This document shows, piece by piece, positions 22,898 to 25,106 of a DNA stretch of 38,245 nucleotides (its first letter is position 1; every line of letters begins with the position of its first letter). The notes beneath the pieces were generated by a model. That model had not been told where the DNA came from, ran no database searches, and saw only the letters and a list, made by a program, of their open reading frames with translations. The stretch covers positions 1 to 38,245 of the forward strand of contig CANAIK010000011.1 of assembly GCA_947361225.1 (NCBI GenBank). The letters are read 5' to 3'. The DNA comes from an uncultured bacterium (GTDB taxonomy: Bacteria; Cyanobacteriota; Vampirovibrionia; Gastranaerophilales; Gastranaerophilaceae). Made by a program: the position numbers and the translations under genes.

Positions 22898-22938
22898 CAA
22901 ATTTTTTTTCTGTGACGAATTGGGGACTAAGCGAAAAT

Positions 22939-22967
22939 TAGACAACCCGGATTCAATATGGTAGAAT
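22939..22967 (+). promoter_or_regulatory. promoter of hydrophobic peptide gene, copy 1
   Basis: TAGACA (22939-22944, 5 of 6 to TTGACA), a 17-base spacer, then TAGAAT (22962-22967, 5 of 6 to TATAAT). The predicted start is near 22974, giving a leader of about 87 bases. The leader holds an 8-bp stem, TCTATCGG (23003-23010) with CCGATAGA (23035-23042), ending just before the ribosome site. Confidence 0.75.
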
Positions 22968-23060
22968 AGCCATAGTAATCGGGCACTCTTGAAAACTTAA
23001 TCTCTATCGGCACGAACTGTAAACTCGGACGCTTCCGATAGACGAGGAGGTGAGAGCCTA

Positions 23061-23156
23061 ATGTTAACAAAGTTAATGCTAGTGATAATATTATCACTTT
23101 TAGATATTAAAAAACTAGCACTAATAGCGTTAATAACAGTGCTAGTATTCAATTAG
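23061..23156 (+). CDS. 31-aa hydrophobic peptide, candidate type I toxin, copy 1
   Basis: ATG at 23061 follows AGGAGG (23045-23050) by 10 bases; AGGAGGTGA is close to a full anti-16S match, one of the strongest ribosome sites in the window. The peptide begins MLTKLMLVIILSLLD, has IKK in the middle, and continues LALIALITVLVFN. Apart from Lys4, Asp15 and Lys17-Lys18 it is almost wholly L, I, V, A, so it should insert in the inner membrane. Small size, strong ribosome site, structured leader and an antisense transcript fit type I toxins (Fst, Ldr, TxpA, Ibs), but I see no direct sequence match to a named family. An alternative is a regulatory RNA with an incidental frame. Confidence 0.72.
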   Translation: MLTKLMLVIILSLLDIKKLALIALITVLVFN

Positions 23157-23215
23157 AATACAATCGAGAGTTAAAATTTAAAGGTTTTTGAGCGAACCTT
23201 TAAAGCTCGATTGCT
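23109..23215 (-). ncRNA. candidate antisense RNA (antitoxin), copy 1
   Basis: Predicted transcript of about 105 nt. The promoter at 23222-23250 gives a start near 23215. Termination is at ACTAGCACT / AGTGCTAGT (stem arms 23138-23146 and 23114-23122, 15-base loop) followed by six T, the last of them at 23109. It is fully complementary to the 3' half of the peptide gene (codons 17-31) and to the terminator hairpin of its message. Its own 5' end folds into the complement of that hairpin, and GTATTC-TAATT-GAATAC gives a middle hairpin. Mutual hairpins suit loop-loop contact, as in RatA/TxpA or SR4/BsrG. Transcription is predicted, not shown. Confidence 0.68.
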
Positions 23216-23218
23216 TTT
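23161..23218 (+). terminator. terminator of hydrophobic peptide message, copy 1
   Basis: Outer stem CAATCGAG (23161-23168) with CTCGATTG (23206-23213) and inner stem TTTAAAGGTT (23177-23186) with AACCTTTAAA (23195-23204), followed by CTTTTAT. The hairpin lies wholly within the region covered by the antisense RNA. Confidence 0.75.
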
Positions 23219-23221
23219 ATC

Positions 23222-23250
23222 ATTATTTACTATATTCCCCCTTTTGTCAA
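23222..23250 (-). promoter_or_regulatory. antisense promoter, copy 1
   Basis: On the minus strand: TTGACA (23245-23250, a perfect -35), 17 bases, AATAAT (23222-23227, 5 of 6 to TATAAT). This is a better promoter than the sense one, as expected when an unstable antitoxin RNA must be in excess. Confidence 0.78.
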
Positions 23251-23274
23251 GATGCTAACTTTATTTAGGAAAAT

Positions 23275-23303
23275 TAGACAACCCGGATTCAATATGGTAG
23301 AAT
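23275..23303 (+). promoter_or_regulatory. promoter of hydrophobic peptide gene, copy 2
   Basis: TAGACA (23275-23280), 17 bases, TAGAAT (23298-23303). Identical to copy 1. The leader stem is at 23339-23346 and 23371-23378. Confidence 0.75.
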
Positions 23304-23396
23304 AGCCATAGTAATCGGGCACTCTTGAAAACTTAATCTCTATCGGCACGAACTGTAAACTCGGACGCTTCCGATAGACGAGGAGGTGAGAGCCTA

Positions 23397-23492
23397 ATGT
23401 TAACAAAGTTAATGCTAGTGATAATATTATCACTTTTAGATATTAAAAAACTAGCACTAATAGCGTTAATAACAGTGCTAGTATTCAATTAG
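23397..23492 (+). CDS. 31-aa hydrophobic peptide, candidate type I toxin, copy 2
   Basis: Same 31-codon frame as copy 1, with AGGAGG at 23381-23386 and stop TAG at 23490-23492. Because the two coding parts are identical as read, the peptides are the same and each antisense RNA could act on either message. Retention of both intact copies, rather than decay of one, argues for either very recent duplication or selection on dose. Confidence 0.72.
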   Translation: MLTKLMLVIILSLLDIKKLALIALITVLVFN

Positions 23493-23551
23493 AATACAAT
23501 CGAGAGTTAAAATTTAAAGGTTTTTGAGCGAACCTTTAAAGCTCGATTGCT
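23445..23551 (-). ncRNA. candidate antisense RNA (antitoxin), copy 2
   Basis: Equivalent of the copy 1 antisense RNA. Start near 23551; terminator stem arms at 23450-23458 and 23474-23482, with the T-run ending at 23445. It covers codons 17-31 and the 3' untranslated region of copy 2. Confidence 0.68.
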
Positions 23552-23554
23552 TTT
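23497..23554 (+). terminator. terminator of hydrophobic peptide message, copy 2
   Basis: Same two-part hairpin as in copy 1, followed by CTTTTAT. Confidence 0.75.
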
Positions 23555-23557
23555 ATC

Positions 23558-23586
23558 ATTATTTACTATATTCCCCCTTTTGTCAA
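23558..23586 (-). promoter_or_regulatory. antisense promoter, copy 2
   Basis: On the minus strand: TTGACA (23581-23586), 17 bases, AATAAT (23558-23563). Identical to copy 1. Confidence 0.78.
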
Positions 23587-23676
23587 GATGTAACATAGGA
23601 GGAGGTTGTAATTGAAATTTATAAAGATAGAAGTTTGAAAGTTCTTTTTAGTCAAAATCCTAAAATCACGATTGCG

Positions 23677-23991
23677 TTAATAATGACTGTTATTTCGCCG
23701 ATTGCGTCTTTGAGCGTTTGTTATAGGTTTCAGACTAAGGTTTTTTAAATGATTTTCTTTTTCTTCTTGCGCCCAGTAGATTTTAGCCAGAGTTTCAATC
23801 ACTGCGTCATTTCTTATTTTTGATTCTTCGTTTAGGAAATTGAAATCCTGGACATATTGCTGCATTGATTTAACTTCATCGGTTGAAATTATCATTTTTT
23901 CAACAATTGTATACATTTCTTCGCTTGATTTGAGAACAAGTTCAAGAGTTTCTTTTAATTCTTTAATTTCTTTTGATTTTTTTCTGCACAT
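23677..23991 (-). CDS. small helical orphan protein, 104 aa
   Basis: Not recognised. The sequence is hydrophilic and strongly helical: KEIKELKETLELVLKSSEEM near residues 7-26 is a likely coiled coil, and the C-terminus is basic and Asn/Arg-rich (NAQRRNRRNNSHY), possibly nucleic-acid binding. It is divergent from the XRE regulator with only 32 bases between the two starts, so they must share a control region. Its 3' end faces copy 2 of the toxin-like unit. Pairing of a small protein with a divergent XRE gene is common in phage-derived or accessory control modules, but no phage genes are present. Confidence 0.6.
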   Translation of the reverse strand: MCRKKSKEIKELKETLELVLKSSEEMYTIVEKMIISTDEVKSMQQYVQDFNFLNEESKIRNDAVIETLAKIYWAQEEKENHLKNLSLKPITNAQRRNRRNNSHY

Positions 23992-24023: not shown

Positions 24024-24341
24024 ATGATAGAAAAGGCAAAAAATACATTTATCATAAGAAATATGATAAATAATGACGATATTAAGTGCATTTTCGGAAC
24101 TGCTGTAAAAAATTTAAGGCAGGAAAAAGGAATTACTCAAGAAAAGCTTGCAGAATTCCTTGATATAGAAAGACAAACTGTAGCCACGATTGAAACAGGT
24201 AAAAGATTTGTTTCAAGTGAATTGCTTTCTAAACTTTGCAATTTTTTCAATGTCGAACCTTATGTTTTCTTTGTCAAACAAGGTAAAACTTACACTAAGG
24301 AAGATTTAGACTATATTGAACAAATAACATTTAAAGCTTGA
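24024..24341 (+). CDS. XRE-family HTH regulator
   Basis: 105 residues from 24024; a second ATG at 24063 would give 92 residues and also precedes the whole HTH, and neither has a clear ribosome site. The Cro/C1-type HTH covers about residues 26-83 (VKNLRQEKGITQEKLAEFLD, then IERQTVATIETGKRFVSSEL, then LLSKLCNFFNVEP), with the typical Q-x-x-L-A and S/T-I-x-x-E/I-x-x-G patterns. It should bind DNA as a dimer and probably controls itself and the divergent orphan gene. It is the first of three HTH genes in a row. Confidence 0.88.
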   Translation: MIEKAKNTFIIRNMINNDDIKCIFGTAVKNLRQEKGITQEKLAEFLDIERQTVATIETGKRFVSSELLSKLCNFFNVEPYVFFVKQGKTYTKEDLDYIEQITFKA

Positions 24342-24474
24342 AAAAATTTACAATATTCTTTCTAAGATTAAAAAGTAAAAAATGTTTTAACTTAAGAGCT
24401 GTTCATTGTTTGATTCCTAAAATTGCCCGAAGTGTCGGGTAAATAAAATTAATACTACAATTATTATATTATTA

Positions 24475-24735
24475 ATGCAAGACGATGCTAAAATACTATA
24501 CAAGGCAATTTCCAGGGTAGTTGCCAAAATAAGAAAAGATAAAGGTATAAAATATACCGATTTTTGCTATGAAAACGATATTCCAATGTCAACTTATGAT
24601 GATATAATAAACCACAAAACAAAAGCTTCTTATTATAATGTTGCAAAGGTTGTTCGTGCGCTTGGGTTGAGTTTTGAGGAATTCGGAGCACTTTTGGATA
24701 AGGAACTACCCAAGGATTTTTTTAAGGAACTCTAG
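24475..24735 (+). CDS. small HTH protein, tandem paralogue 1
   Basis: 86 residues. A diverged HTH (KYTDFCYENDIPMSTYDDII near residues 26-45, then YYNVAKVVRALGLSFEEFGA near 53-72) is similar in layout to XRE domains. The last 32 residues (VAKVVRALGLSFEEF to the end KDFFKEL) are almost the same as in the next gene, while the first 54 share only about a third. It has no obvious ribosome site; an AT-rich upstream stretch (TATTATATTATTA) ends at the ATG, so the message may be leaderless. It may be a DNA-binding partner of the XRE protein. Confidence 0.78.
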   Translation: MQDDAKILYKAISRVVAKIRKDKGIKYTDFCYENDIPMSTYDDIINHKTKASYYNVAKVVRALGLSFEEFGALLDKELPKDFFKEL

Positions 24736-24794
24736 GTTTTTAGGTAAAAAATGGTTTAATTTATGAACTATTCATTATTAGAATTTAATTTTTT

Positions 24795-24812
24795 ATTACA
24801 TAGGTATGTAAT
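24795..24812. promoter_or_regulatory. perfect inverted repeat before the second HTH paralogue
   Basis: ATTACATA-GG-TATGTAAT, 8-bp arms, 34 bases before the ATG at 24846. Size and position suit an operator for a small HTH dimer, perhaps one of the three encoded here. No equivalent is present before the first paralogue. Confidence 0.45.
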
Positions 24813-24845
24813 ATTTGATTTTAATTTACCATTATCATAGATTTA

Positions 24846-25106
24846 ATGCAAGAAAAAGATTTAGAATTGTATAGAATCGTTGGAAAAGTTCTTCGACAGG
24901 AAAGATTGAGGAAGGATTTAAAGTTTACCATTTTTTGTTATGAGAATGATATTGCAACTTCTTCTTTAAACTCAATTGAGAATGCAAGGGCTCAAATATA
25001 TTTTTCCAACATTGCAAAGGTTGTTCGTGCGCTTGGGTTGAGTTTTGAAGAATTCGGAGCACTTTTGGATAAGGAATTACCCAAGGATTTTTTTAAGGAA
25101 TTATAG
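24846..25106 (+). CDS. small HTH protein, tandem paralogue 2
   Basis: 86 residues, same length as its neighbour. The N-terminal half differs (LELYRIVGKVLRQERLRKDL; FCYENDIATSSLNSIENARA), including the expected recognition helix, so the two probably bind different sites. The C-terminal 32 residues match apart from one Val/Ile change, and in the DNA (24640-24735 against 25011-25106) only 5 of 96 bases differ, mostly silent. This suggests gene conversion of the 3' part or a recent copy of that part. The region upstream (24743-24780) is also similar to that before paralogue 1 (24375-24412). Confidence 0.78.
   Translation: MQEKDLELYRIVGKVLRQERLRKDLKFTIFCYENDIATSSLNSIENARAQIYFSNIAKVVRALGLSFEEFGALLDKELPKDFFKEL

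Follow-up and report, generated by a model that had tools for sequence, protein, structure and literature searches.

Why does an uncultured member of the Gastranaerophilaceae carry, one directly behind the other, two identical units that each encode a very hydrophobic peptide of 31 residues? The units lie in a 38,245-nt stretch of contig CANAIK010000011.1 (assembly GCA_947361225.1), here called the window, in which an original prediction, made from the letters alone, had seen a type I toxin-antitoxin-like module. The present analysis leads to the same reading: with a probability of about 0.8, the window holds a tandem-duplicated type I toxin-antitoxin module, as indicated by a predicted convergent antisense RNA with conserved promoter and terminator, by the predicted folding of the toxin mRNA and by covariation among related units. 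The family to which it belongs is large, new by sequence and apparently undescribed.

Layout of the tandem unit

The repeated 322-bp unit of the original prediction was recovered as two exact copies with a start-to-start spacing of 336 nt (Table 1), and each copy contains the promoter (TAGACA-N17-TAGAAT), the leader hairpin, the strong Shine-Dalgarno sequence (SD) and the hydrophobic open reading frame (ORF) that had been described. The TAGACA-type -35 element is seen again in many relatives. The proposed terminator was borne out in part: a 3' hairpin is present, but the T run behind it is short (CTTTTAT), making a sense terminator plausible rather than strong, and a strict terminator scan of the region, which disallowed loops longer than 8 nt, returned none.

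Two elements that are absent from the original prediction complete the layout. Each unit has a promoter on its minus strand at the 3' end, and its ORF contains an inverted repeat (23114-23122/23138-23146 in copy 1) with TTTTTT behind it when read on the minus strand. The two antisense promoters are the best-scoring promoters of the region, which has 17 promoter-like sites compared with 5.8 in shuffles, and they converge on the sense promoters. The inverted repeat forms an intrinsic terminator for the antisense strand, which the strict scan missed because of its loop limit of 8 nt. The antisense RNA predicted from promoter and terminator would extend over the final 16 codons and all of the 3' untranslated region (3'UTR), and folds as two stable hairpins with a linker between them.

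The predicted toxin mRNA is strongly structured, the segment 22974-23226 folding at -77.4 kcal/mol compared with -47.2 kcal/mol for shuffles (z = -6.8), in agreement with the structured leader that had been proposed. Its 5' arm (22977-22984) pairs with a 3' arm (23205-23212), so that the two ends of the transcript close on each other. Chance is excluded as the origin of this layout, because homologous units in many genomes are built in the same way.

Table 1. Features of the two unit copies and of the adjoining gene fragment (positions in the window; R2 is the covariance model of type B units described below; GRAVY, grand average of hydropathicity)
Feature	Position (copy 1, or single)	Position (copy 2)	Strand	Details
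Unit	22933-23254	23269-23590	+	322 nt, copies identical letter for letter; R2 matches 23093-23253 and 23429-23589, each E=3.1e-10
Sense promoter	22939-22967	23275-23303	+	TAGACA-17-TAGAAT; score 10/12, TG ahead of -10
Predicted toxin mRNA	22974-23220	23310-23556	+	predicted ends; sequences identical
Leader hairpin 5' of SD	23003-23042	23339-23378	+	stem TCTATCGG/CCGATAGA
Shine-Dalgarno	23045-23053	23381-23389	+	AGGAGGTGA; strong
31-aa peptide	23061-23156	23397-23492	+	MLTKLMLVIILSLLDIKKLALIALITVLVFN; copy 1 ATG 23061, stop 23154-23156; 31 codons, hydrophobic, GRAVY 2.0
Sense 3' hairpin/weak terminator	23162-23220 (hairpin 23162-23212)	23498-23556	+	complementary to 5' hairpin of antisense RNA
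Antisense promoter	23250-23222	23586-23558	-	TTGACA-17-AATAAT; score 11/12; 3' end of each unit
Antisense intrinsic terminator inside ORF	23109-23146	23445-23482	-	stem ACTAGCACT/AGTGCTAGT, then TTTTTT
Predicted antisense RNA	23215-23109	23551-23445	-	about 107 nt; ends predicted from promoter and terminator
5' fragment of prophage DUF1353 gene	23595-23665		+	about 70 nt long, lies behind copy 2; matches gene following the prophage unit on contig C29

A family of units with covarying RNA elements

Relatives were sought by searching for the antisense promoter as a pattern, followed by scans with two covariance models, R1 (five type A units) and R2 (seven type B units), both built without the window. 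Of the 383 genomes from the order, R1 matched 138 and R2 152, each in 27 of the 52 genera, and these scans gave up to 8 matches per genome. A phylum sample of 386 genomes contained 86 with matches, all in the window's own family; single matches were present in two other families of the order. The 24 genome contig records with a type A unit are mostly assigned to Candidatus Gastranaerophilales, the rest to 'uncultured bacterium', which fits the Melainabacteria-type host suspected from the window alone. The window's own genome contains about ten copies, including a diverged unit on contig C29 and a truncated unit on contig C14.

No match for the family was found in Pfam, NCBIfam, PHROGs, Rfam or PDB sequences, extending the earlier statement that the peptide has no evident match; the Rfam candidates Ref84 and aspC were rejected, with scores below gathering and E near 1. 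It is a multicopy family of gut Gastranaerophilales without any curated model, and with ORFs of 21-31 codons it is easily missed by gene callers.

The antisense promoter is the same in 75 of 76 units and has a functional substitute in the remaining one, the unit sets having been found partly via this element. The first units outside the own genome and genome G023 came via this promoter, and R2 includes it; R1 includes only its -10 side, and type A units nonetheless carry TTGACA at 17 nt. Units of the own and sister genomes in which the antisense promoter differs in sequence still carry TTGAAN-16/17-TATAAT.

Closure of the mRNA is likewise a property of the family, as the 5' end closed on the 3' end in 11 of 12 full units folded singly, and in the remaining one (L038) the arm that pairs is set further inward from the assumed start. 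The cognate duplex of 5' and 3' ends has -15.1 kcal/mol, compared with -11.4 kcal/mol when ends are exchanged between units (0/20000 permutations), and a cognate advantage is also seen for a second arm in type A (0/20000) and for the ends of type B units (15/20000), the permutation tests here and below ignoring the relatedness of units. The SD is unpaired with a probability of 0.00-0.27 in ten relatives and 0.55 in L019. Pairing between the regions of the start and the stop codon is seen in many relatives.

A second form of covariation links the leader to the 3'UTR. About 25 nt ahead of the SD, type A leaders contain a word, usually of 8-10 nt, that is repeated exactly in the 3'UTR right after the stop hairpin. 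There are at least a dozen different type A words, and those of leader and 3'UTR change together, sharing 8.89 nt compared with 4.36 nt for exchanged pairs (0/20000); type B words, mostly of 5-8 nt, share 6.52 nt compared with 4.96 nt (0/20000). Phylogeny alone leaves unexplained that two sites of one unit change and yet stay equal. Two direct repeats have no means of pairing with one another, but the linker of the antisense RNA contains their complement, so that the antisense RNA can bind leader and 3'UTR alike, a binding of the leader that we infer for the family and not for the window. Words are mostly unlike from unit to unit in arrays L051, L055 and L045, suggesting private pairs of mRNA and antisense RNA; the units of G023 have one common word, showing that such privacy is not universal.

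Coding evidence and alternative readings

The common RNA chassis carries several unrelated peptides of about 21-32 residues, all of which stay hydrophobic: MDKFNISLLLIFLILYILKNGSYLNR and its relatives in type A, MVDKIIMLLLAFSIAVIALKL, MTNEIIKTVITVIITVLQIVIYWL and VKRQIIKSAIKVLIALLNLIYLFL in type B, and others, among them MNNLIIKIAITAIIAILNFILLFL and MQFSVSEKALLLILLIIIALAFAK, in the genome of the window and in sister genomes; the window peptide adds one more. RNA structure is better conserved than the peptide, which, together with this variety of peptides and the lack of a homologue of the window peptide, would also be expected of a structured regulatory RNA pair, a small RNA with an antisense decoy, in which the ORF is incidental or merely senses translation. 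This alternative is unlikely in view of the signs of coding in the relatives, where a strong SD, start and stop are retained in nearly all units, frameshifted copies are rare (L061), hydrophobicity is invariably kept and the second codon position is conserved (59/100000 column permutations in type A and 74/100000 in type B1). The ratio of non-synonymous to synonymous polymorphism (pN/pS) in type A is 0.38, lower than in any of the other five frames (4/300 column shuffles). On a type B chassis, L051 1122-1286 (minus strand) encodes a longer basic peptide, MDLLIYLFLDYLIQKYKKKVPDLELLELFIKS, and a similar hairpin is kept in L027.

Several observations weigh against a toxin-antitoxin module in the window. 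Related genomes, in which the original prediction had proposed to search, yielded many units with the same layout but no match to the window peptide among 383 family genomes, so that conservation supports the coding reading in relatives only. The window unit showed no recognisable leader/3'UTR repeat, the duplex of its leader with the antisense RNA is no better than that of shuffled leaders (312/500 reach it), and in its full-length fold the SD core is only half hidden (unpaired 0.41). Within the family, an automatic count found at least four T on the antisense side in 41 of 74 in-ORF hairpins and on the sense side in 20, and pN/pS in type B1 is 0.81, a value that carries no information, since these codons also contain the antisense terminator.

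Tandem arrays are common in the family, with seven mixed type A and type B units inside 2.1 kb in G105:C28 and three units each in G308:C1, G248:C34, G179:C18 and G023:C22. Where array units were read (G023, L051, L055) they have diverged, so their tandem arrangement is not only an artefact of assembly; the exact identity of the two window copies could reflect recent duplication, conversion or assembly.

Some units are associated with phages. Units lie on viral contigs (L038, and L032, which also has an integrase gene), the unit of L032 being placed between a tail-side gene and an Amidase_3 gene, and the C29 unit of the own genome lies within a prophage tail module, between tail-module genes. 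The DUF1353 fragment behind copy 2 makes the window locus look like a prophage remnant, the trace of a lost prophage. These positions, and a single hydrophobic helix of about 25 residues that would suit a holin-like peptide, raise the alternative of an antisense-controlled peptide that is holin-like or serves in phage lysis. It is quite unlikely, as most units are not known from lysis modules, arrays reach seven units and each unit has its own promoter and antisense RNA, unlike a gene of a late operon; an adjoining amidase is found only in L032, none follows directly in C29, and no PHROG holin was matched.

A small non-autonomous mobile repeat resembling a miniature inverted-repeat transposable element, with the tandem copy due to transposition or assembly, could account for the multiple copies, the conserved ends and two identical copies in a draft assembly of 98 contigs, but is very improbable given that the conserved ends are promoters whose function stays in relatives with different end sequences, that terminal inverted repeats and target-site duplications were not seen (though not systematically tested) and that diverged units in other arrays preclude an assembly effect alone.

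Known type I systems, possible mechanism and surroundings

Among known systems, Ldr/Rdl and Ibs/Sib of Escherichia coli have tandem short hydrophobic peptides with antisense RNA, as here; their antisense geometry is different and no sequence relation was found. The original comparison with Ldr thus holds for the tandem copies, but convergent RNAs, leader repeats and paired mRNA ends bring the family closer to par/Fst and AapA/IsoA. TxpA/RatA and BsrG/SR4 of Bacillus subtilis prophages are prophage-borne and have an antisense RNA over the toxin 3' end, as here, but their toxins are longer, their antisense terminator is outside the ORF and we know of no leader repeat in them. A further comparison is offered by Microcystis aeruginosa, which belongs in GTDB to the same phylum as the host of the window.

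Reports of type I systems were confined to Proteobacteria, Firmicutes and Tenericutes before a single Microcystis locus was described in 2025 (PMC12390103). This locus, msoT1/msoA1, is the first cyanobacterial type I candidate, with a 63-aa toxin of two predicted membrane helices and an antisense RNA that, as here, targets the ORF's 3' end together with the 3'UTR (PMC12390103). It differs in being a single locus with an antitoxin of 56-83 nt, and its toxin is longer than the peptides of 21-31 residues found here. For Melainabacteria and Gastranaerophilales, no type I system was found in the literature, most subscription papers lying outside the search, and a prior description is possible. Two papers bring up both Gastranaerophilales and toxin-antitoxin systems, but their titles point to other subjects.

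The geometry of the units appears most similar to par(pAD1)/Fst, and the closure of the mRNA to AapA, although membership in either is not established. Convergent promoters, a toxin mRNA with an antisense RNA, complementary 3' hairpins and a leader stem hiding the SD are shared with par(pAD1), in which RNA II reaches the Fst initiation region via DRa and DRb (PMC7472228); direct repeats would bring the antisense RNA to the initiation region here also, in type A and B relatives only. The differences are that the window peptide is unrelated, lacking PXXXG and a charged tail, that no bidirectional terminator is shared, the antisense RNA ending in the toxin ORF apart from the sense 3' hairpin, that the 5' end closes on the 3' end, and that the repeat is in leader and 3'UTR, with none found in the window unit. 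None of 10 peptides had an Fst-like match in Pfam or NCBIfam, and PXXXG was absent by inspection.

With AapA/IsoA of Helicobacter the family shares multicopy chromosomal modules, membrane peptides of about 30 residues and long-distance 5'-3' pairing of the mRNA, whereas here the antisense RNA overlies the second half of the ORF and the 3'UTR, and the anti-SD is in the leader and not at the 3' end. No AapA-type match was found in Pfam, NCBIfam or PDB sequences, in which the presence of an AapA model is not established. In AapA the mRNA is closed by 5'-3' pairing and module specificity is documented (PMC6733600), and in par/Fst variation of the repeat sequence is presumed to make systems specific (PMC7472228); in the present family, specificity of modules is only suggested.

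As a type I module, the unit would produce a sense RNA encoding a short peptide directed to the membrane and harmful once made. Its primary transcript would be closed, 5' end on 3' end, with the SD in or beside the leader hairpin, and is proposed to be poorly translated until opened or processed. The antisense RNA, transcribed convergently from the strong 3'-end promoter and complementary throughout to the 3'UTR and the second half of the ORF, would repress it, probably making first contact through its 5' hairpin, which mirrors the sense 3' hairpin. In relatives, the antisense linker complementing the leader word 5' of the SD would prevent initiation in the manner of RNA II of par/Fst. If the element were lost, a stable mRNA would outlast the antisense RNA, and such a post-segregational effect may help to keep prophages and arrays in place.

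More tentatively, the family might represent a lineage-wide, fast-diversifying, RNA-addressed toxin system, in which exchangeable membrane peptides are mounted on one chassis, the leader/3'UTR word serves as the address tying an antisense RNA to its own mRNA, and arrays on chromosomes and prophages act as mutually private modules in competition between elements or phages. The coordinated change of leader and 3'UTR would make it possible to test, by swapping a short word, how numerous similar type I modules can exist side by side free of cross-talk.

Next to the array, the window contains a 104-aa ORF on the minus strand (23677-23991) without a Pfam match, followed at 24024-25106 by an HTH_3 gene and two paralogues of 86 residues that have the same C-terminus (...GLSFEEFGALLDKELPKDFFKEL). 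Toxin units of a sister genome (L113, L117) lie directly behind a gene whose end resembles GLSFEEFGALLDKELPKDFFKEL. The minus-strand unit of L069 begins right after an apparent tRNA gene 3' end, a type of site often used for integration.

Decayed units (L061 1501-1580, L060, L027, L007) show a frameshift in a T run, a lost stop, a lost leader and ORF, and a lost 5' end. Other candidates were rejected: DNA matches to the unit in G016, G025 and G027 are due to chance, the stretches of G016 and G025 being alike and resembling part of an ordinary gene, and viral scans by ORF words returned mostly noise (L033-L037, L039). Weak matches to a Staphylococcus phage and a Priestia plasmid (E 2e-3 to 7e-3) cover about 50 AT-rich nt. 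L023 and L024 are not units, having in common with the antisense promoter only its core and being followed by ordinary genes; near position 1501 both contain genes in which about ten C in a row come shortly behind the start codon, a possible phase-variable tract.
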